Shown in pieces: positions 43,825 through 55,093 of a DNA stretch of 64,000 nt. The stretch is from Bizionia sp. Its GTDB lineage: Bacteria; Bacteroidota; Bacteroidia; Flavobacteriales; Flavobacteriaceae. The stretch's first letter is position 1. The number at the start of each line of letters is the position of its first letter. The position numbers were made by a program, and so were the translations under genes. Where the stretch lies: the NCBI GenBank assembly GCA_020631395.1, contig JAHDHI010000014.1, positions 1 to 64,000 on the forward strand. Reading direction: 5' to 3'. The notes beneath the pieces are model-generated. The model made no database searches and was not told the DNA's origin. It saw nothing but the letters and a program-made list of their open reading frames with translations.

Positions 43825-44958
43825 ATGAAAAAAGTATTATTTATAGATAGAGACGGCACAATAATAAAAGAAACTGCAGACGAGCAAATAGATTCTTTTG
43901 AGAAATTGACATTTTACCCAAAAGTGTTTCAATACTTGGGAAAGATAGCAAAGGAGTTGGATTACGAAATCGTGATGATAACCAATCAGGATGGTTTGGG
44001 GACCGATGTCTATCCAGAAAATACGTTTTGGCCAGTTCATGATTTTATCATAAGTACATTCAAAGCAGAAGGAATCGTCTTCAAGGAACAATTCATAGAT
44101 GTAACCTTCGCAAAAGACAATGCGCCAACGCGCAAACCAAATACAGGATTGCTAACTCAGTATTTCTCAGAAGCATACGATTTGGCAAATTCATTTGTAA
44201 TAGGAGATCGTTTAACGGACATAGAATTGGCCAAAAACCTTGGTTCAAAGGGAATTTACATCAATGATGAAACCCATCTGGGAACAAATGAGATTACAGT
44301 CAAGAGAAGTGAATTGGATGCATACATAGGTTTGGAAAGTAACGATTGGGAAGACATATATACCTTTTTGAAAGCAGAAGAGCGTACTGGTAAAATTACA
44401 CGAAATACCAACGAAACCAAGATAGACATAGCATTGAACCTTGATGGAACCGGGAATAGCAACATAGATACTGGGATTGCATTCTTCGACCACATGTTAG
44501 ATCAAATCTCCAGGCATGGCCAATTGGATTTAAACATCAAGGTAGAAGGTGATTTGGAAGTAGATGAACATCATACCATAGAAGATACGGCTATAGCCTT
44601 GGGAGAAGTCTTTGCTGAAACCTTGGGAAACAAGTTGGGGATAGAACGTTACGGATTCTGTTTGCCTATGGATGACTGCCTATCTCAAGTAGCCATAGAT
44701 TTTGGTGGACGCAATTGGCTTGTTTGGGAAGCGGAATTCAAACGCGAAATGATAGGCAAAATGCCAACGGAGATGTTTTTTCATTTCTTCAAATCCTTTA
44801 GTGACGGTGCAAAATGCAATTTGAACATAAAGGCAGAGGGCGTAAACGAACACCACAAGATCGAAGCCATTTTCAAAGCTTTTGCAAAAGCGATCAAAAT
44901 GGCAGTAAAGCGAGATGTTGAAAAAATGATTTTGCCTTCGACCAAAGGAGTCTTATAG
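43825..44958 (+). CDS. hisB: Bifunctional histidinol-phosphatase / imidazoleglycerol-phosphate dehydratase
   Basis: 377 residues, the fused HisN-HisB form. Residues 1-165 are a HAD phosphatase: [11 protein letters not shown] (D8 nucleophile, D10), MITNQDGL and [13 protein letters not shown]. Residues 180-377 are the dehydratase with manganese ligands in [40 protein letters not shown] and [16 protein letters not shown]. It supplies two non-consecutive steps of the pathway. Confidence 0.96.
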
Positions 44959-44977
44959 AATTAAAAGCACGAGAGCA

Positions 44978-45559
44978 TTGAAACTAGTCATAATAGATTA
45001 CGGAGCAGGAAACATTAAAAGCATTCAGTTCGCATTTAAGCGCCTGGGGGTAGAAGCCATATTGTCAAACAACCCGGAAGAAATCAAGTCTGCAGACAAA
45101 GTCATTTTTCCAGGTGTGGGAGAAGCAAGTTCTGCGATGGAAAAATTAAAGGAAAGCGGATTGAATGAACTGATAACAGAACTTAAACAACCGGTTTTGG
45201 GGATTTGTCTTGGAATGCAATTGTTATGCAACCATACGGAAGAAGGAAATACAAAGGGACTGGGTGTCTTTGATGTAAACATAAAGCGCTTTTCCAATCA
45301 AGTCAAAGTTCCTCAAATGGGATGGAATACCATAAAAAATTTGAAATCCGAATTGTTTGCTGGCATAGGTAATGATGATTACATGTATTTGGTACACAGC
45401 TACTATGCCGAAAATAGCAAAGAAGCCATAGCTACCACTTGCTATGATGTAGACTATGCATCTGCATTGCAAAGGGATAATTTTTACGGTGTGCAATTTC
45501 ACCCAGAAAAGAGTAGTGTGGCAGGGGAGCGAATATTAAAGAATTTTTTGGCGCTTTAA
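44978..45559 (+). CDS. hisH: Imidazole glycerol phosphate synthase, glutaminase subunit
   Basis: 193 residues from a TTG start (MKLVIIDYGAGNIKS); no ATG is available. Class I glutamine amidotransferase passing ammonia to HisF. Nucleophile Cys in LGICLGMQLL, His/Glu in GVQFHPEKSSVAG, and the oxyanion-loop GVGEASSAM. Encoded near hisF, separated by hisA as in most his operons. Confidence 0.95.
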   Translation: MKLVIIDYGAGNIKSIQFAFKRLGVEAILSNNPEEIKSADKVIFPGVGEASSAMEKLKESGLNELITELKQPVLGICLGMQLLCNHTEEGNTKGLGVFDVNIKRFSNQVKVPQMGWNTIKNLKSELFAGIGNDDYMYLVHSYYAENSKEAIATTCYDVDYASALQRDNFYGVQFHPEKSSVAGERILKNFLAL

Positions 45560-45625
45560 GCTTAGAATGCATTTCGCACTGCATTGAAGAATTACCAAAG
45601 GCAGATAGAAATATAAAAAGCAAAC

Positions 45626-46393
45626 ATGAGAATAATACCAGCAATAGACATCATAGACGGCAATTGTGTGCGTTTGACAAAAGGAGATTACAATACCAAG
45701 AAGATATACAATGAAAACCCTTTGGAAATAGCAAAGCAATTCGAGGCTTCGGGCATAGAACATCTACATGTTGTGGATTTGGACGGAGCGAAAGCGAAAC
45801 ATATTGTAAACTACAGGATATTGGAACAGATTGCATCCAAAACAAGCTTGAAGATAGATTTTGGAGGCGGATTGAAATCTGATGAGGATTTGAGAATAGC
45901 ATTCAATTCTGGAGCCAATCAGATAACAGGGGGAAGCATAGCCGTAAAGAATCCCAATGTCTTTGAACAATGGATATCTAAATTTGGAGCAAGTAAAATC
46001 ATTTTGGGAGCGGATTTTTACCCAGATGCCATTGGAGGAAAAATAGCTACCAATGGTTGGCAAGAAGAAAGCAACTTGGAGTTGATGCCATTTATTGAAG
46101 GCTATTTGAAAAAGGGAATCCAATATGTGATTTGTACGGACATCTCCAAAGATGGTATGTTGGAAGGCCCATCGTTTGATACTTATCAAAAAATCATAAA
46201 TAAGGGACAAGTGACAACCGATAACGGAGGTGCCACGCGTTCAATCAAACTAATAGCCTCTGGAGGCATATCTACTTTTGATGAATTGCCAAAACTGGCA
46301 GAAATGGGCTGCGAAGGCGTTATCGTTGGTAAGGCCATCTATGAGAACAAAATAAGTCTGAAGCAATTGGAAACGTTCGTTTTGAACAATTAA
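45626..46393 (+). CDS. hisA: ProFAR isomerase
   Basis: 255 residues, (beta-alpha)8 barrel isomerising ProFAR to PRFAR. Catalytic Asp in [18 protein letters not shown] (D8) and the second in [15 protein letters not shown]; phosphate loops at [11 protein letters not shown] and [12 protein letters not shown]. Internally duplicated like HisF. A slightly long C-terminal end is normal for Bacteroidetes. Confidence 0.95.
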
Positions 46394-46412
46394 CATCTAA
46401 AATAAATTTTAA

Positions 46413-47168
46413 ATGCTTACAAAGCGAATAATACCTTGTTTGGACATCAAAAACGGAAGAACCGTCAAAGGGGTTAATTTTGTGAACTTGATAGATGCTG
46501 GAGATCCAGTGGAATTGGCAAAGCAATATGCAGAAAGAGGTGCAGACGAATTGGTGTTTTTGGACATCTCAGCAACCTTGGAAGGTCGAAATACCACTTT
46601 GGAAATGGTTTTGAGTGTGGCTGAGCAAGTGAACATACCATTTACTGTAGGAGGAGGGATATCTTCCATAGAAGATGTGGATAGACTACTAAAGTCTGGG
46701 GCAGACAAAATATCCATCAATTCATCGGCAGTAAAGCGTCCGGATTTGATAAACGAATTGTCCAACAAATTTGGAAGTCAATGTGTAACTGTTGCGATTG
46801 ATGCAAAACAGATAGAAGGCGAATGGATAGTGCATTTGGCAGGAGGAAGCATTCCAACCCAATGGAATCTATTCGATTGGGCCAAGGAAGTGGAAAGAAG
46901 AGGAGCAGGAGAAATCTTGTTTACCTCCATGAACAATGATGGTACAAAGGCAGGCTTTGCCAACAAGGCATTGGCCAGATTGTCGGAAAGCGTGAATATT
47001 CCAATAATAGCCTCGGGAGGAGCAGGAACGATTCAACACTTCGTGGATGCTTTCGAAATGGGGAAAGCAGATGCAGCTTTGGCCGCAAGCGTATTTCACT
47101 TTGGTGAAATTCCCATTTTGGAATTGAAAAAAGAATTGAAACAAAACAACATAGCAGTACGCATATAA
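46413..47168 (+). CDS. hisF: Imidazole glycerol phosphate synthase, cyclase subunit
   Basis: 251 residues. Barrel enzyme forming imidazole glycerol phosphate and AICAR with His[20 protein letters not shown] (catalytic Asp11), [26 protein letters not shown] (second Asp, about 130), [16 protein letters not shown] and [11 protein letters not shown]. 19 bp after hisA. Confidence 0.96.
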
Positions 47169-47279
47169 CAATAGCGTTAATTTTCGAATTGTGTGGGAAT
47201 GAAAGAGAAAGAACAAGCTACAACATGTCGTTTTGCTTTGTAATGCCACTTGACTAGAAAAAACTAACAAACAATCAAC

Positions 47280-47882
47280 ATGACAATAGATTTCGATAAA
47301 AGCAACGACGGATTGATTCCAGCAATCATTCAAGATAACAATACAAAAAACGTTTTGATGCTGGGGTATATGAATGCCGAAGCATTGGAAAAGACCAAGA
47401 GGACTAAACTGGTCACATTCTTTAGTCGTAGCAAGCAGCGCCTATGGACAAAAGGTGAAGAAAGTGGCAATGTCTTGAATTTGGTAGACATCAAATTGGA
47501 TTGCGACAATGATACCTTGTTGATTCAAGTGGATCCCAAAGGACCAACTTGTCATAAAGGAACGGATACATGTTGGAATACTTCAAATGTCGAAACATAT
47601 GGATTTATCTCCAAGTTGGAGGAAACTATCGAGGATAGACGTACAAATGCAACAGCCGAAAAATCCTATGTTGCTTCCTTGTTTGAGAAAGGTATCAATA
47701 AAATCGCTCAGAAGGTTGGTGAAGAAGCCGTGGAAGTTGTAATCGAGGCCAAAGATGACGATGACGACTTGTTTTTGAATGAAAGTGCAGATTTGCTATT
47801 TCATTACTTGATGCTATTGCAAGCAAAAGGTTTCAAGTTGGAAGATGTCATGGGGGTATTGAAAGAAAGAGAAAAGAAGTAA
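47280..47882 (+). CDS. hisIE: Bifunctional PRA-cyclohydrolase / PRA-pyrophosphohydrolase
   Basis: 200 residues, HisI-HisE fusion. N-terminal cyclohydrolase with MLGYMNAEAL, FFSRSKQRLWTKGEESGN, zinc/magnesium ligands in DIKLDCDNDTLL and the Cys pair in PTCHKGTDTCW. C-terminal pyrophosphohydrolase (about 115-200) with KVGEEAVEVVIEAKDDD and DLLFHYLMLLQ. Performs steps 2 and 3 of the pathway. Last biosynthetic gene of the operon. Confidence 0.96.
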   Translation: MTIDFDKSNDGLIPAIIQDNNTKNVLMLGYMNAEALEKTKRTKLVTFFSRSKQRLWTKGEESGNVLNLVDIKLDCDNDTLLIQVDPKGPTCHKGTDTCWNTSNVETYGFISKLEETIEDRRTNATAEKSYVASLFEKGINKIAQKVGEEAVEVVIEAKDDDDDLFLNESADLLFHYLMLLQAKGFKLEDVMGVLKEREKK

Positions 47883-48707: not shown

Positions 48708-51602
48708 ATGAAAAGTAAAGCAAAACATCTTATTTTCTTTTTGTTTGCCTTTGTCATCTTGGCAAATGCAAATACGAACAAATATAGATTGACACTAAGG
48801 GACAACCCAGCGACATCCATTGTCGTAGGTTGGAATCAAATTTCAGGAAACAACGCAGTGGTCTATTATGGAACCACGGATTTTGGCACCAATTGGAGTG
48901 CTTATCCCAATGGAAAAACCGTAGATCGTTCGGTGAGTTACAGGGGAATGAACAACAGATTTGCATATTTGACGGGATTACAGCCAAACACCAACTACTA
49001 TTTTGTAATTCGTGACAATGAAGGGACAAGTTCCCGATTTTGGTTTAAAACCTGTTCCAACAATCCAGCAGATAAGTTGTCTTTCATAGCAGGGGGAGAT
49101 TCCAGAAACAATAGGACGCCTAGAATTAATGCCAACAAGTTGGTTGCGAAATTGAAACCGGATGCAGTGTTGTTTGGTGGCGACATGACCAACAGCGATA
49201 GCAATTCTCAATGGAGTACTTGGTTTGACGATTGGCAATACACCATAGCAAGTGATGGGAGGATGTTTCCAATAGTGGCGACGAGAGGCAACCATGAAAG
49301 TTCTAACAATTCCATTTACAACTTGTTCGACGTTCCTTCATCCAATGTGTATTATGCCATTACATTTGGTGGGTCATTGATTAGATCCTATACCTTGAAT
49401 ACGGAGATGTCCATATCAGGAAACCAAACTACTTGGTTGAATTCGGATTTACAGTCCAACAACAATACGACATGGAAAATGGCGCAATACCACAAACCAA
49501 TGCGACCTCACGTAAGTTCTAAGTCGGAAGGCAATCAGCAATATGGCAGTTGGGCACAATCGTTTTTCGATTACGACGTAAAGTTGGTAGTGGAGTGCGA
49601 TGCCCATACGGTAAAGACGACCTGGCCGGTGAGACCATCCACATCTGGAGGTAGCGACGAAGGTTTCATAAGAGACGATGCAAATGGTACCGTCTACGCA
49701 GGGGAAGGTTGCTGGGGCGCACCATTGCGTTCCAACAACGACAACAAGGCTTGGACAAGGAACAGTGGGATGTTCAACCAATTCAAATGGATTTTTGTGG
49801 ATCAATCAAAAATCGAAGTCAGAACCATCAAAGTGGACAATGCCGATCAAGTTGGGGAGGTAGGAAACAACAACCGTTTTGCGATACCTGCCAATTTGGA
49901 TGTGTGGAATCCAAGCAATGGTTCCGTGGTAACCATAACAGGAAATTTGGACGCTCCTACGTGCAACGTTACAAGTCCAGCAAACGGACAATGGTACAAT
50001 GCCCCACAAGGCATAACCATTGGAGCAAATGCTGCAGATGCAGATGGGAATGTGGTCAATGTGGAGTTTTTTGTAAATGAGACTTCCATCGGTACGGATG
50101 CAACGAGCCCTTACACCAAGAACTATTCCATCCCTACAGATGGAGCATATGCCATAACAGCCATTGCAACGGACAATGATGGACTGACCACGACAAGTAC
50201 AACGGTGAACATTACCGTAGGTGTCGTTGCCCAAACCTTCGAAAAGCGAATTGCAAATGGAATGGATGATGTCGAGCAAAACGGAACGAATGGTAGCATC
50301 TATACGAACAGCTCGGATATGGAATTGGTCAACGATGGCTCAAAGGGAAATCAAATCGTGGGGCTTCGTTTTACGGGAATAACGGTACCACAAGGCGCTA
50401 CAATTACCAAGGCATATATTCAGTTTACAGTAGATGAAACATCCTCAGGTACTACAAACCTTAACATAAAAGGGCAAGATATCAATGATGCGCCAGCATT
50501 TGCCAGTGCAACGAACAATGTATCGAACAGAACGACCACCATTGCATCGGTATCTTGGAATCCATCGCCTTGGAACAGCGTAGGAGCATCAGGTACAAAC
50601 GAAAGGACTCCAGACATCAAATCAATCGTTCAAGAAATAGTGGATAGATCGGGATGGAACTCCGGAAACGACATGGCCATGATAATTACAGGAACAGGGG
50701 AACGAACAGCAGAAGCTTATGAAGGTGTATCTGGAAGTGCAGCATTGCTTCATTTGGAATATACTGTGGGAGGAACGCCTTCAAATGGATGTGACAGCGT
50801 ACTAATCGATACCAACGATTTTGAAAGCAACTATGGCGTCTGGAATGACAGTGGGTCGGATTGTACGAGGACAGCCAATGCTTCCTATGCGAAAAGCGGC
50901 ACCTATAGCGTAAGGTTGAGAGATGACACCTCTAGTTCCAGAATGTACACGGATACCATGGATTTGTCAGATTTCGATGATGTCACAATAAGCTTTTCAT
51001 ACATGTGCAATAGCATGGACATGGACAATGGCAATGAAGGTTTTTTGTTGCAACTTTCTGAAAATGGAGGGATCTCCTATGCGATGGTAGAAGAATGGAA
51101 TAGGGATGATGAATTTGCAAACAATGTACGCTATGACGATTCCGTAACCATTCAAGGGCCATTTACGGACTCAACCCGTTTTCGTTTCGTATGCGATGCT
51201 TCATCAAATGGAGATCAAGTATATATTGACGATGTCGTGATTTCCGGTTGTTCCGATGTAGCACCAAAGAGCATGTCAACGATCAAGAGTGTCGATTTCA
51301 TCACAGCAAAGTTTTCAAATGATGGGCTGCCAGACAATCAAGAAGCAGAAGACGATTTCTTTGAAGATATGATGGTGTACCCAAATCCATTCAAAACCAA
51401 TTTCAACATAGAGTTTATAGAACCCGTGGGTTGGGGAAAGATAGAACTGTACAACTTGCAAGGAGAATTGGTACACGAAAAGGTCTTTCGAAGATCCGAT
51501 GAACCCATCGAGGTGGAGCCAAATGGATTGACGATGGGGGTGTATTACCTCAAAGTAAAAGTTGGCAATGCATCAATACTCAAAAAAGTGTTGAAGAAAT
51601 AA
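48708..51602 (+). CDS. Purple-acid-phosphatase-like metallophosphoesterase exported by T9SS
   Basis: 964 residues. Signal peptide (1-21), a fibronectin-like N-terminal domain (about 22-115), and a calcineurin-like phosphoesterase (about 122-400): IAGGDSRNN (D131), LFGGDMTNS (D159), TRGNHESS (N195-H196-E197), YHKPMRPH, and VVECDAHTVK, where the usual GHxH is degenerate. Then an Ig-like domain (about 424-505), two further beta-sandwich modules (about 510-690 and 695-850), and a type A T9SS sorting domain (about 888-964; MMVYPNPFKTNFNIEF). A large secreted, possibly multi-substrate phosphatase. Followed by a strong terminator. Confidence 0.87.
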   Translation: MKSKAKHLIFFLFAFVILANANTNKYRLTLRDNPATSIVVGWNQISGNNAVVYYGTTDFGTNWSAYPNGKTVDRSVSYRGMNNRFAYLTGLQPNTNYYFVIRDNEGTSSRFWFKTCSNNPADKLSFIAGGDSRNNRTPRINANKLVAKLKPDAVLFGGDMTNSDSNSQWSTWFDDWQYTIASDGRMFPIVATRGNHESSNNSIYNLFDVPSSNVYYAITFGGSLIRSYTLNTEMSISGNQTTWLNSDLQSNNNTTWKMAQYHKPMRPHVSSKSEGNQQYGSWAQSFFDYDVKLVVECDAHTVKTTWPVRPSTSGGSDEGFIRDDANGTVYAGEGCWGAPLRSNNDNKAWTRNSGMFNQFKWIFVDQSKIEVRTIKVDNADQVGEVGNNNRFAIPANLDVWNPSNGSVVTITGNLDAPTCNVTSPANGQWYNAPQGITIGANAADADGNVVNVEFFVNETSIGTDATSPYTKNYSIPTDGAYAITAIATDNDGLTTTSTTVNITVGVVAQTFEKRIANGMDDVEQNGTNGSIYTNSSDMELVNDGSKGNQIVGLRFTGITVPQGATITKAYIQFTVDETSSGTTNLNIKGQDINDAPAFASATNNVSNRTTTIASVSWNPSPWNSVGASGTNERTPDIKSIVQEIVDRSGWNSGNDMAMIITGTGERTAEAYEGVSGSAALLHLEYTVGGTPSNGCDSVLIDTNDFESNYGVWNDSGSDCTRTANASYAKSGTYSVRLRDDTSSSRMYTDTMDLSDFDDVTISFSYMCNSMDMDNGNEGFLLQLSENGGISYAMVEEWNRDDEFANNVRYDDSVTIQGPFTDSTRFRFVCDASSNGDQVYIDDVVISGCSDVAPKSMSTIKSVDFITAKFSNDGLPDNQEAEDDFFEDMMVYPNPFKTNFNIEFIEPVGWGKIELYNLQGELVHEKVFRRSDEPIEVEPNGLTMGVYYLKVKVGNASILKKVLKK

Positions 51603-51623
51603 CAAGTGCACAATTCAAATGAT

Positions 51624-51658
51624 GATGCCCACTGGACTTCCCAGTGGGCATCTTTGTT
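51624..51658 (+). terminator. Rho-independent terminator after the metallophosphoesterase
   Basis: GATGCCCACTGG (51624-51635) pairs perfectly with CCAGTGGGCATC (51641-51652) around ACTTC, followed by T-rich sequence. Confidence 0.88.
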
Positions 51659-51859
51659 TCTCAACCATTGTGAATATAATGGATCGATCAATGTCGAGTC
51701 GTTGACATGTTCGTTGCAATTAAGGAACATGTACAAAAACGTGAATTTACCATTGCTTAACTTCTACGATCATTAAGTGACGATGAATTAAAATAGGGCT
51801 AAGAGTAACATAATGCTCATGGTGTTAATTTGTGGTATTCAAAAAACAACTAAAAGACA

Positions 51860-53308
51860 ATGAAAAATTATTTGAAATTCAGTATTATTAGTTTGGTTTT
51901 GGCATCTTCAATAGGATGTAAGGACGATGACAATGATATCTTCCAAGAATTATCGAACCCCGTTGATTTAAAGGCTCATTCCGTTACTCCAAATTTCTTG
52001 AAAGCTACTTCAGAGTTTTCAGAGGTAAACATCTATCCGCTATTATCTTCTGAAGATGTGTTGACAGAATCTCCAGCATTCGTATATGGCTCCATGGCTG
52101 ATGGAGCTGGGTTAATTAAAAACAAGGACAACACCTATACATTGATCAACAACATAGAAGCAGATTATGCAATAGCAAGGATAACCTTGGATGAAACATT
52201 TAAACCTATAAATGGAGAGCACATCTTGAATGCTTCGGCAACAGCCAATACTGCACAATGTTCTGGATCTTTGATTACGCCCGAAGAACATGGCTTCGGG
52301 CCGTTGTATCTGTCTGGAGGAGAGTGGGGAGGTGCCTCGAAGGGAGTGTTTGTCACAAACCCATTAAAAGATGCCAATGTAGCTTCCTTTGCACAGATGT
52401 TGCCGGCAATGGGACAATGGTCTACTGAAAATGCAGTAGCCATTGGGCAAAACGCATTTCCTGGGAAAACAGTTGTGTTCATAGGTGACGATCATTCCAA
52501 CAACGAAGTACCTTCTGGACAATTGGGAATGTACGTAGGAAACAAAGGAGATTTGTATGGGGGGCAATTGTTTGCTTTGAGAGTCATTGACGACTCCATC
52601 GATTTTGAAGTAGACATGGAAGAAGGCGAATCCTATCCAATAGATTTCGTAGCATTGCAAGAAACACAAATGGATTTGTTGGATACGGAAGCAAAGACGA
52701 AAGGGGCAATGGGCTTTTCAAGATTGGAGGATATCGATTGGAGAAGAGGATCGGCAGCAAACAATAGAGAAATATACTTTAATGTCACAGGAAGAAAAAA
52801 ACCAGGGCTGGAAGGAAAAGGAACTACCTATGGCAGAGTTTACAAGTTGACTTTAAATGAAAACGACCCAACTGGGGCAGGAACGATTACTTGTGTACTT
52901 GATGGAGACAAGGCAAATGGTCTTGCAAAGTCCTTCCATAGCCCAGACAATATCGTTGTCACAGAAAACTTTGCATACATACAAGAAGATCCTAACGGTT
53001 ATTTTGATGCAGCTGATAAAATGCACTATGCAAGATTATACCAATACAATCTGAATACAGGTGAATTGAAAACAGTATTGGAATGTGACCAAGATGCAGC
53101 CCAAGCTCAGGGGTACGGAACAACGAACAGCATTTGGGAAATTACAGGAATGATAGATGTTTCGGATGTGGTAGGAGTCGATGAGACGTTCTTGGTCATC
53201 ACGCAAAACCATGGATGGGAAGGTGGCTTCACGGATCCTGAAGCCAATGCTTCCCCTTCTACAGGTCAAGGAAGCATATTGTACATCATAAATGGTTTGG
53301 AGCGATAA
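51860..53308 (+). CDS. PhoX-like (DUF839) lipoprotein
   Basis: 482 residues. Lipoprotein signal with Cys20 (SSIGC). The DUF839/PhoX-like features are FVYGSMADGAGLI, GFSRLEDIDWRRGSA, SPDNIVVTENFAYIQED and ITQNHGWEGGF. PhoX enzymes are calcium/iron-dependent alkaline phosphatases; here the Tat signal of classic PhoX is absent and a Sec lipoprotein signal replaces it, as in Bacteroidetes members. Metal-ligand completeness cannot be judged by eye. The next gene, a di-heme peroxidase, starts at or 27 bp after the stop, so the two form a tight pair. Confidence 0.78.
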   Translation: MKNYLKFSIISLVLASSIGCKDDDNDIFQELSNPVDLKAHSVTPNFLKATSEFSEVNIYPLLSSEDVLTESPAFVYGSMADGAGLIKNKDNTYTLINNIEADYAIARITLDETFKPINGEHILNASATANTAQCSGSLITPEEHGFGPLYLSGGEWGGASKGVFVTNPLKDANVASFAQMLPAMGQWSTENAVAIGQNAFPGKTVVFIGDDHSNNEVPSGQLGMYVGNKGDLYGGQLFALRVIDDSIDFEVDMEEGESYPIDFVALQETQMDLLDTEAKTKGAMGFSRLEDIDWRRGSAANNREIYFNVTGRKKPGLEGKGTTYGRVYKLTLNENDPTGAGTITCVLDGDKANGLAKSFHSPDNIVVTENFAYIQEDPNGYFDAADKMHYARLYQYNLNTGELKTVLECDQDAAQAQGYGTTNSIWEITGMIDVSDVVGVDETFLVITQNHGWEGGFTDPEANASPSTGQGSILYIINGLER

Positions 53309-53335
53309 ATGATATTTCATAAAGTCAAATTAACC

Positions 53336-55093
53336 ATGACACGCACATTTCTATGTGCGTGTCTATTTGGTATCGTTCTTTTTGGTTGTAAGAAAAGAAA
53401 TGGTACTTACGAAGCCGATATTCCACGGGAGAAGCTGAATATCAATTTCAAAAAAGACATAAAGGAAGCGATCTTGTTTTTAGATACCTTGATTGCTGTT
53501 AACACGCATGAGGAGAGATTGAATTATTACAAACATGCAAGAGCGAAGTTCAAAAAGCTAGAACCAATACTTGCTTTTTTAGACGGTGAAAACTACAAGT
53601 TCTTGAACCAACCCAACATACTCAAAGTGGAAGAGGAGGATGCTACGGACATAAAGGTAAAGCCACCTTATGGATTTCAAGTTTTGGAAGAACAATTGTT
53701 TGCCGAGATTCCTGAAGAAGACATGACAACCAACATCGAATTCATTAAAAATCGTTTGCAACTGATTTCAGCAAACACAAGATTGAACATTGAGAACCAT
53801 CATTTGATATGGTTGTTGAGAGACGAAATTGTACGTGTTGCTCTAACGGGTATAACAGGATTCGATTCTCCAGTTTTGGAGCAATCCCTCGAAGAGGCAA
53901 AAATTGCATATCTCGAGATGGAAAGAATCTTAAATGTCTACGCTTCAAACTTTAAAGATCAAACGTTACTTAAGATATGGACAGATGAGTTTACCAGAAC
54001 CAAAAAAATGCTAACTGCAGATTTTGAGGCTTTTGATCGCTATTACTTCATAAAAAACCATACGCATCGACAATTGCAACTTCTGGTGAAAACTCAAAAG
54101 GATTGGAATGTGAACTTTCCTTTCGAAATGGCTTTCAAAAATGAGGTGATCTCACTTTTTTCTGAAAAAACCTTCAACCTGAGCTTTTTTTCCGATAGCA
54201 ACGCCGAGGTCGCTTTTTTTTCTGAAAAGGTAGCATTGGGAAAACGTTTGTTCGATGATGAAAACTTGTCACGATCCAAAAGCATCAGCTGTGCATCCTG
54301 TCATCAGGAAGACAAAGCATTTACAGACGGGTTGAAAAGGTTTGACGGGCAAACACGGAATACGCCAACAATGCGTTATGCTGCATTGCAAAAAGGTTTT
54401 TTTCATGATGGTAGAGCTGGAAGCTTGGAAGGACAGATCATAAACGTCATTAAAAATGAAAATGAATTTCATTCCGATTTGAAAACGGTTATGGAAGTTG
54501 TGAAATCTAATTCATCCTATGTAGAGGATTTCAAGGCCTTATATGGCAAGGTAGATGATGGAGCCATTAGAAACGCCATAGCCAATTATGTAAGAAGTCT
54601 ATCTACTTTCAACTCAAAGTTCGATAGAAACATCAATGGTTTGGAAAATACATTGACCCAAAATGAAATCAACGGATTCAACCTGTTCAATGGGAAGGCC
54701 AAATGTGCGACCTGTCATTTTGCACCAGTGTTCAATGGTACGGTACCTCCAAACTACAAGGAGTCGGAGTTGGAAGCCATTGGGGTGCCAAATGGCACGT
54801 TGAGAGGAACTAGGATTAGTGATGATTTGGGACGCTACCATCTTTTCAATGTCGAAGAACGAAAACATTTCTTTAAAACACCTACGGTTAGAAATGTTTC
54901 CAAGACTGCACCATACATGCATAATGGTGTATATGGGACATTGGAAGAAGTAATGACGTTTTACAAGAATGGAGGAGGAGCTGGTTTGGGAATCGAATTG
55001 GAACACCAAACTTTGCCAACGGACTCCTTAAAATTGAATGCAGAAGAAATTCAAGACATCATTGGTTTTTTGAACACTTTGGAAGATGAGTAG
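53336..55093 (+). CDS. Di-heme cytochrome c peroxidase / MauG-family lipoprotein
   Basis: 585 residues from the ATG at 53336 (MTRTFLCACLFGIVLFGC, lipobox Cys18); an ATG at 53309 directly after the previous stop gives a poorer signal. A helical N-terminal domain (about 30-270) precedes the peroxidase region with two heme c motifs, CASCH (about residue 318) and CATCH (about 458). NTPTMRYAALQKGFFHDGRAGSLEGQ and KTPTVRNVSKTAPYMHNG are typical. It reduces peroxide in the periplasm or, like MauG, modifies a partner protein. Tight linkage to the PhoX-like gene hints at a shared role. Confidence 0.88.
   Translation: MTRTFLCACLFGIVLFGCKKRNGTYEADIPREKLNINFKKDIKEAILFLDTLIAVNTHEERLNYYKHARAKFKKLEPILAFLDGENYKFLNQPNILKVEEEDATDIKVKPPYGFQVLEEQLFAEIPEEDMTTNIEFIKNRLQLISANTRLNIENHHLIWLLRDEIVRVALTGITGFDSPVLEQSLEEAKIAYLEMERILNVYASNFKDQTLLKIWTDEFTRTKKMLTADFEAFDRYYFIKNHTHRQLQLLVKTQKDWNVNFPFEMAFKNEVISLFSEKTFNLSFFSDSNAEVAFFSEKVALGKRLFDDENLSRSKSISCASCHQEDKAFTDGLKRFDGQTRNTPTMRYAALQKGFFHDGRAGSLEGQIINVIKNENEFHSDLKTVMEVVKSNSSYVEDFKALYGKVDDGAIRNAIANYVRSLSTFNSKFDRNINGLENTLTQNEINGFNLFNGKAKCATCHFAPVFNGTVPPNYKESELEAIGVPNGTLRGTRISDDLGRYHLFNVEERKHFFKTPTVRNVSKTAPYMHNGVYGTLEEVMTFYKNGGGAGLGIELEHQTLPTDSLKLNAEEIQDIIGFLNTLEDE

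Follow-up and report, generated by a model that had tools for sequence, protein, structure and literature searches.

Why should a gene for a PhoX-like surface lipoprotein be followed directly by a gene for a di-heme peroxidase? The question is raised by a 64,000-nucleotide stretch of Bizionia sp. DNA (assembly GCA_020631395.1, contig JAHDHI010000014.1, positions 1 to 64,000; 'the window' below), in which the two genes lie downstream of a third, for a purple-acid-phosphatase-like protein. The original prediction, made from the sequence alone, took the three for one cluster and proposed that the peroxidase could protect, load or modify the redox-active iron of its PhoX-like neighbour. The three open reading frames stand where it placed them, with the domain families it described:

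48708..51602, + strand: open reading frame for a purple-acid-phosphatase-like protein of the type IX secretion system (T9SS), with a purple acid phosphatase N-domain, a metallophosphatase domain, Big_7, a Reelin subrepeat and a T9SS sorting tail
51860..53308, + strand: gene for a DUF839/PhoX-like surface lipoprotein of 482 residues, group c1, recognised by a single Pfam match (PF05787) and its predicted fold
53309..55093, + strand: gene for an M75-fold/MauG-type di-heme peroxidase lipoprotein, 594 residues when counted from 53309, recognised by PF03150, two CxxCH motifs and a lipobox

The first ATG of the peroxidase frame abuts the stop codon of the DUF839 gene; an internal ATG at 53336 gives a better signal peptide and is, on inspection of the sequence, the likelier start. 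The answer argued for here is that the pair encodes an exported PhoX-like metalloenzyme and a dedicated periplasmic oxidative maturase, a reading to which we give about an even chance.

The DUF839 gene and the peroxidase gene are a real conserved unit, found together far above chance. The claim that they are tightly paired was followed by a co-occurrence check in (i) 149 genomes of the same family, (ii) 296 genomes from the Bacteroidota and (iii) a named genome collection, from which the best 80 of 532 DUF839 relatives were taken. DUF839 proteins grouping with that of the window are called c1, and a second DUF839 group c2. Among the matches listed, c1 proteins are found at 28 loci in 27 of the 149 family genomes; 27 of those loci have a peroxidase, with the same long N-terminus, immediately downstream and on the same strand. 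All 29 c1 loci used from the phylum set have the peroxidase, always downstream and on the same strand (43 places were found, of which 14, with E 3.9e-12 or worse and mostly short N-terminal matches, were dropped). The peroxidase adjoins the c1 gene at 78 of the 80 named loci, which span Bizionia, Lacinutrix, Winogradskyella, Tenacibaculum and Aquimarina to Pontibacter, Cesiribacter and Labilibacter. Three c1 loci are unpaired: L075 from the family set and, from the named collection, the Mangrovimonas loci L133 and L135. Each is a second copy in a genome that has a pair as well; at L154 a second DUF839 copy sits after the peroxidase. The original prediction was to fall if the pair proved not to be conserved; conserved across genomes as it is, the pair survives on this point. 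The wider neighbourhood is variable, though a few shared gene blocks recur in subsets of the genomes. The peroxidases that go with c1 fall into a single clade (support 1.0; complementary split 0.989); the enzyme has thus diverged along with its partner group. At L176 (6459-8280) the peroxidase appears as two overlapping frames, likely through a frameshift or sequencing error.

The purple-acid-phosphatase gene lies outside the unit. A counterpart of its catalytic region stands beside the pair only at L107 (1/80 named loci; flanks of 5-9 kb), the closest relative, with a DUF839 protein 89% identical to that of the window, and at none of 27 other family c1 loci when flanks of 5-9 kb were searched. 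A strong terminator also separates the gene from the pair:

51624..51652, + strand: terminator hairpin between the purple-acid-phosphatase gene and the pair (region 51610-51665: -26.7 kcal/mol, z -6.5)

On these two grounds the three-gene cluster was rejected.

The pair itself has a published precedent. In every Flavobacterium genome the putative phoX is reported to share an operon with the gene for a MauG-like c-type cytochrome peroxidase (Lidbury 2022, PMC8812569). Deletion of phoX in Flavobacterium johnsoniae lowers inducible phosphatase activity, the pafA phoX double mutant being at 9.6 against 21; PhoX-Fj expressed in P. putida without its peroxidase showed no activity, and it is suggested that PhoX-Fj may need the MauG-like protein or a cofactor to function (PMC8812569). 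Upon phosphate depletion the transcripts of the pair Fjoh_2478/Fjoh_2477 rise 12.50- and 9.58-fold (Lidbury 2020, PMC8115612 Table 1). The module is therefore not undescribed, as had been supposed: for Flavobacterium, PMC8812569 already has both the operon and the idea that PhoX may need the MauG-like protein, and the window pair is a further example in another genus. The expected induction under phosphate limitation is likewise in print for Fjoh_2478/Fjoh_2477, the same pair by family and gene order (PMC8115612), and the expected link to phosphatase activity has the F. johnsoniae mutant indirectly behind it (PMC8812569). Pairing with the peroxidase across the phylum goes beyond the published Flavobacterium statement and is new here.

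The first member of the pair is recognised by the PF05787 PhoX profile at 32.7 bits against a cut-off of 24, and its gene (51860-53308) is the one PF05787 match in the window's own genome. Only 11 of 28 c1 members match the profile at E <= 0.01, so Pfam annotation misses most c1 proteins. The predicted model (pLDDT 89.9) has Pseudomonas fluorescens PhoX, 4a9v, as its top structural match (Z 28.2, root-mean-square deviation 2.7, 376 residues); the propeller also resembles lactonases and a pyrroloquinoline quinone (PQQ) sugar dehydrogenase. A profile search of the PDB with c1 alone found no PhoX. Residues were mapped through c2, which aligns to PhoX by sequence, together with a profile comparison (E 2.4e-9), and the equivalents of the PhoX active site fall on residues invariant in all 28 c1 members:

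52259..52261, + strand: Cys134, equivalent of PhoX Cys179 (28/28; mapped via c2)
52427..52429, + strand: Glu190, equivalent of PhoX Glu273 (28/28; mapped via c2)
52721..52729, + strand: Arg288-x-Glu290, equivalent of PhoX Arg385-x-Glu387 (both 28/28; mapped via c2)

PhoX needs iron and has a ferric-calcium cofactor; we take Cys179 to be a ligand of the iron, and Cys179, Glu273, Arg385 and Glu387 to hold or serve the iron-calcium centre. Judged by alignment and predicted model, the four active-site equivalents and the PhoX fold are kept in c1. Classical PhoX has a twin-arginine signal peptide; the window protein has a lipoprotein signal without twin arginine, and it is therefore filed as PhoX-like, not as classical PhoX. 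In many c1 proteins (DUF839 genes of L079-L097) collagen-like Gly-x-Asp repeats, perhaps a surface stalk, lie between lipid anchor and propeller; 7 of 28 match Pfam Collagen.

The second member has the hallmarks of a di-heme enzyme at its C-terminal end. Residue counts for it refer to a set of 46 fusion peroxidases:

54215..55090, + strand: di-heme CCP_MauG domain, residues 303-594 (PF03150, E 5e-43)
54290..54304, + strand: first CxxCH heme motif, C328-H332 (46/46)
54704..54718, + strand: second CxxCH heme motif, C466-H470 (46/46)
54962..54964, + strand: Tyr552, at the position of the axial heme ligand Tyr294 of MauG (46/46; aligned to the MauG chain)

The PF03150 match, at 147.7 bits against a cut-off of 25.6, places the protein in the superfamily, and the Tyr at the axial-ligand position of the six-coordinate heme speaks for MauG. 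Residues 22-54 of the query match residues 263-295 of the MauG chain over equal lengths, which places Y552 on 294, and a Y294H variant of MauG scores below the wild type against the peroxidase (25.9 vs 27.8 bits). Q376 and E386 are invariant and spaced like MauG Q103 and E113. Compared with wild-type MauG at 77.1 bits, the variant P107V scores 79.8, E113Q 76.0 and Q103N 75.1, a rise and two falls that agree with the mapping of Q376, V380 and E386. Tyr-His ligation is that of MauG and BthA, Met-His that of classical peroxidases (PMC6405878). The best curated NCBIfam model is MbnH (172.9 bits vs a cut-off of 362.85), and the MauG equivalog gives 154.1 bits vs 443.85, both below cut-off; the first Foldseek match is 6e1c, which is MbnH. 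Of the label 'MauG/CcpA-type' first given to the protein, the MauG part holds for the Tyr at the axial position and the CcpA part does not, the Met being absent. A CcpA-type detoxifying peroxidase was accordingly rejected as the family label, with Tyr, not Met, in 46/46, even though overall likeness to classical peroxidases is still as high as to MauG.

The N-terminal part of the peroxidase is a domain of its own. The original prediction rightly read a di-heme protein but missed that the ∼270 N-terminal residues have a separate M75 fold:

53417..54118, + strand: N-terminal M75 (EfeO/EfeM/imelysin) fold domain, residues 37-270, with a remodelled metal site (predicted-structure matches)

The predicted fold matches EfeO (7wgu, Z 21.3), Algp7 (3at7, Z 21.3) and EfeM (7q1g, Z 20.9), and by its own profile the best solved relative of the domain is Escherichia coli EfeO (E 0.0016). 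At sequence level PF09375 matches 2 of 46 members (best E 0.094), and canonical imelysins of the family align weakly to the domain (hhalign E 0.0034, probability 9.5%). The metal ligands of EfeO and EfeM, in ExxE and HxxE motifs, are described in PMC9174327. In the peroxidases the first Glu of ExxE is replaced by Lys82, the second Asp by Asn100 and the His of HxxE by Gln124, each in 46/46; the acidic positions that remain are Glu85 (43/46), Glu/Asp127 (46/46) and Asp186 (46/46). The domain has nine invariant residues (R78, K82, N100, Q124, E128, D186, P188, R244, F247), and since several fall at ligand positions, the cleft seems to have been kept but re-purposed. The fusion of an M75-fold domain to a MauG-type di-heme domain appears to be new, and no report of an imelysin/di-heme fusion beside PhoX was found in the open-access literature.

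These replacements bear on the first rival explanation, that the peroxidase is a dedicated iron handler whose M75 domain binds ferrous iron, whose di-heme domain oxidises it and which inserts the ferric product into the PhoX site. EfeO and EfeB are thought to cooperate in such iron handling, and the M75 fold, EfeO as best solved relative by profile and the iron requirement of PhoX would all suit it. With most EfeO-type ligands replaced throughout the set (Lys82, Asn100, Gln124), EfeO-like iron binding by the domain is weakened, as far as these residues can tell, and we consider the explanation unlikely.

The export signals place the two proteins apart. The minimal lipoprotein export signal of Bacteroidota is K-(D/E)2 (PMC5080379), and the DUF839 protein has a sequence that fits it:

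51917..51931, + strand: lipid-anchor Cys20 followed by KDDD (lipobox; fits K-(D/E)2)

At the lipobox the window DUF839 protein thus reads CKDDD and the window peroxidase CKKRN. At least two acidic residues lie within six positions after the anchor Cys in 22/26 c1 proteins vs 6/26 peroxidases with a called lipobox; a lipobox was called in 26 of 28 c1 proteins and 26 of 46 peroxidases by a caller that mis-assigned several cysteines, which counts against the comparison. A T9SS tail is found in 11/11 c2 partners. In the F. johnsoniae exoproteome the PhoX-like Fjoh_2478 was found and the MauG-like Fjoh_2477 was not (PMC8115612 Table 1). The DUF839 partner is predicted from its signals to be at the surface or secreted, and the peroxidase to be periplasmic; an enzyme in the periplasm whose substrate ends up at the surface is more in keeping with activation ahead of export than with continuous protection or an exchange of electrons.

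This topology weighs on the two remaining rivals. Plain protection, in which the peroxidase removes hydrogen peroxide harmful to the iron-cysteine centre of its partner, can draw on a superfamily that includes hydrogen-peroxide-reducing enzymes, on classical peroxidases as the closest solved sequences, and on a possible electron donor, an FG-GAP lipoprotein with one CxxCH (c36) that is encoded directly upstream of three c2 pairs (L099, L102, L103). It is improbable, for the partner is predicted to be on the surface or secreted when 20 of the 26 peroxidases with a called lipobox have no such signal, the published exoproteome agrees, the axial position holds Tyr instead of Met, and the peroxidase clades are partner-specific. 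Still less likely is a redox couple in which DUF839 is an oxidoreductase- or lactonase-like propeller, not a phosphatase, passing electrons to the di-heme protein: the likeness to lactonases and PQQ sugar dehydrogenase and the seeming loss of the Arg385 equivalent in c2 would suit it, but the PhoX Cys, the two Glu and the Arg are preserved in c1, with PhoX as top structural match, inducible phosphatase activity is reduced in the F. johnsoniae phoX mutant, and surface partner and periplasmic peroxidase would be apart.

Activation of a PhoX-like enzyme by a dedicated maturase before export, the reading preferred here, would proceed as follows. A PhoB-type regulator would turn on the DUF839 gene, and a hairpin at the gene junction would let only part of the transcription or translation reach the peroxidase gene, leaving less maturase than substrate. 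Both proteins would cross the inner membrane; the peroxidase would gain its two c-hemes and remain on the periplasmic side, where its M75-fold domain would dock the DUF839 partner. The Tyr-ligated di-heme centre, charged by hydrogen peroxide, would then withdraw electrons from the folded propeller, and this would either oxidise the propeller iron to ferric or modify a residue close to the site. Once activated, the enzyme would be moved to the cell surface by its lipoprotein export signal (in the c2 group by the T9SS), where it would release phosphate from organic phosphate esters. More speculative, and in our view possible rather than probable, is the full generalisation: single-protein maturases would form a class found across the phylum, each with an M75 iron-uptake domain rebuilt for docking and fused to a MauG-type engine that activates PhoX-like propellers in the periplasm before export, in a dose set by a hairpin in the maturase's own signal-peptide codons.

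The hairpin that such a dose control would require is present at the junction:

53338..53363, + strand: terminator-like hairpin among the first, signal-peptide codons of the peroxidase gene (fold of the junction)

A terminator-like hairpin with a perfect stem occurs at the junction of 42 of 79 pairs among the loci L107-L186 (shuffle mean 0.3, maximum 2), a count that takes perfect stems only; L107, with an imperfect stem, is among the 37/79 missed. Control junctions have one of this type in 10 of 161 cases (P 6e-16, uncorrected for relatedness), and 60 of the 79 junctions fold better than their shuffles, with z below -2. Stem sequences differ between lineages, and the place shifts too: the hairpin lies inside the first peroxidase codons, those of the signal peptide, in most close relatives displayed, and in the gap between the genes in several distant pairs. 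In the family set it is present in 12/27 c1 pairs and in 0/5 c2 pairs that have the partner upstream. We infer that it acts as an attenuator, holding the amount of maturase lower than that of its substrate; an RNA hairpin between these genes appears to be new.

The fusion peroxidase has partners other than c1. Of the 43 family loci with a long peroxidase that were examined, 27 pair with c1 and 11 with c2, and pairing of the fusion peroxidase with part of the T9SS-exported c2 group is also new here. Two tandem-peroxidase pairs of the family set (G084, G117) adjoin ∼2640-residue frames with a PhoX domain, and a third (G143) is beside a frame with masked letters; long peroxidases stand in tandem at L066, L067 and L106. 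All 51 places found in the phylum set with the N-domain were used, and 44 have a DUF839 gene within 9 kb, 29 of them c1 and 15 PF05787 matches outside c1, one of which (L215) is 7.4 kb away with other genes between. Conversely, 20 of 35 PF05787 places in the phylum set are without the peroxidase (54 were found, 35 used at E < 1e-14 and 19 dropped, some of them weak matches to c1 genes already counted). Seventeen of the 20 give a far stronger match to the PhoX profile (E 7.1e-63 or lower) than does any paired place and, by this score, look like classical PhoX. After the c2 DUF839 gene of L063, L064, L068, L100, L104 and L105 comes a gene for a ∼300-residue leucine-rich-repeat protein (c6; Pfam run on the L064 copy).

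Several observations weigh against the maturase reading. As to the enzyme, V380 stands in place of the distal Pro107 of MauG in 46/46, and the position of the bridging Trp93 of MauG (366) is variable (Y 21, W 7, L 7, H 6, M 4, F 1), as it likewise is in BthA (PMC6405878). The best match by sequence and fold is a classical peroxidase, 1iqc (E 1.2e-30, Z 24.9), ahead of MauG with E 1.6e-21 and Z 22.0 (3svw) and 21.7 (3l4m). As to a target, no Trp or Tyr is clearly common to both partner groups and missing from classical PhoX, in a partial comparison: the c1 invariants W453, Y225, Y328 and Y373 were compared with c2 by eye, the profile alignment covering part only. Trp453 is invariant in c1 only, and c2 partners seem to be without the Arg385 equivalent. 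As to the pairing, a DUF839 gene within 9 kb is missing for 7 of the 51 fusion peroxidases (three of the seven are at contig ends), and among the matches listed for family PF05787 places of c2 strength 13/23 have a long peroxidase within 9 kb and 10/23 do not. At L061 and L062, the two loci that had given reason to weigh the three-gene cluster, the long peroxidase instead has a T9SS purple acid phosphatase (c41) nearby, as well as a TPR-like protein (c42), with no DUF839 gene seen; a search with the c41 protein does not find the purple-acid-phosphatase protein of the window. As to the published pair, the failure in P. putida may reflect poor folding or localisation of the lipoprotein, according to the authors (PMC8812569), and Fjoh_2478/2477 are equated with the window pair by family and gene order only. 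That the peroxidase is needed, which reaction it carries out on which target, and how the M75 domain takes part are all proposals.

Known systems resemble the pair in part. Like the Flavobacterium phoX/MauG-like pair, it has a PF05787 lipoprotein gene adjacent to a PF03150 gene, both of which are induced there by phosphate depletion; the M75 domain, the junction hairpin, the second partner group and the argument from export topology are not described in the portions of PMC8812569 and PMC8115612 drawn on here. With MauG and methylamine dehydrogenase it shares two CxxCH hemes, the Tyr axial position, equivalents of Gln103 and Glu113 and what would be a dedicated partner; unlike MauG, the window peroxidase has an N-terminal M75-fold domain, Val for Pro107 and a variable Trp93 position, and it scores far below the equivalog cut-off. 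MbnH acts with a partner protein, MbnP, and so is again a di-heme enzyme plus partner; it supplies the best-scoring NCBIfam model and the first Foldseek match, but the window peroxidase stays below the MbnH cut-off and its partner is a PhoX-like propeller, not MbnP. Methanethiol oxidase MtoX has a propeller fold. In the mtoX-SCO1/senC-mauG operon a metalloenzyme gene is beside a MauG-like gene thought to mature its product, with the differences that the enzyme is a copper enzyme of an unrelated family and that a copper chaperone gene is included (PMC5739008). Finally, an M75 fold is linked to a heme peroxidase in EfeUOB and in imelysin/di-heme peroxidase operons, and there is mention of an imelysin fused to an EfeB-like domain (PMC3143127, PMC9174327); unlike EfeUOB, the window fusion is to a CCP_MauG domain, has its metal ligands mostly replaced and comes with no permease in the pair.

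The answer matters beyond the window. PhoX-type phosphatases free the phosphate held in organic matter, and both in soil and in the sea Bacteroidota play a major part. If the maturase reading were true, it would account for heterologous failures like that of PhoX-Fj in P. putida, metagenome surveys would have to ask for both genes before counting a phosphatase, and chemistry of the MauG type would be extended to a new kind of substrate. Pairing across the phylum offers many natural enzyme-substrate pairs for locating the modified site or the metal step.

Upstream of the pair, a candidate for the proposed phosphate control is a short repeat:

51746..51761, + strand: 11-bp direct repeat TTTAC-N6-TTAAC, 114 bp before the DUF839 start codon (pattern scan)

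The pattern resembles the Pho boxes of other phyla. It occurs in 16/80 pair upstreams vs 10/307 control upstreams (P 2.7e-6, uncorrected for relatedness and with the pattern chosen after inspection). A stricter TTWAC form gives 4/80 vs 3/307 controls, and a triple form 1 vs 2. A model-free scan for 11-bp direct repeats finds 37/80 (shuffle mean 31, maximum 37), and a 13-bp period did as well (38/80; mean 29, maximum 37). TTNACA-N5-TTNACA occurs in 0/80 upstream regions, and ACA-N8-ACA in 20/80, within the shuffle range (mean 10.7, maximum 21). A repeat of ACATT with 9-bp spacing, which the window does not have, is seen in 20/80 pair upstreams (L135-L185) vs 1/307 controls, 16 of the 20 in Aquimarina. 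Further upstream in the window, at 43825-47882, lie histidine-biosynthesis genes (Pfam on four).

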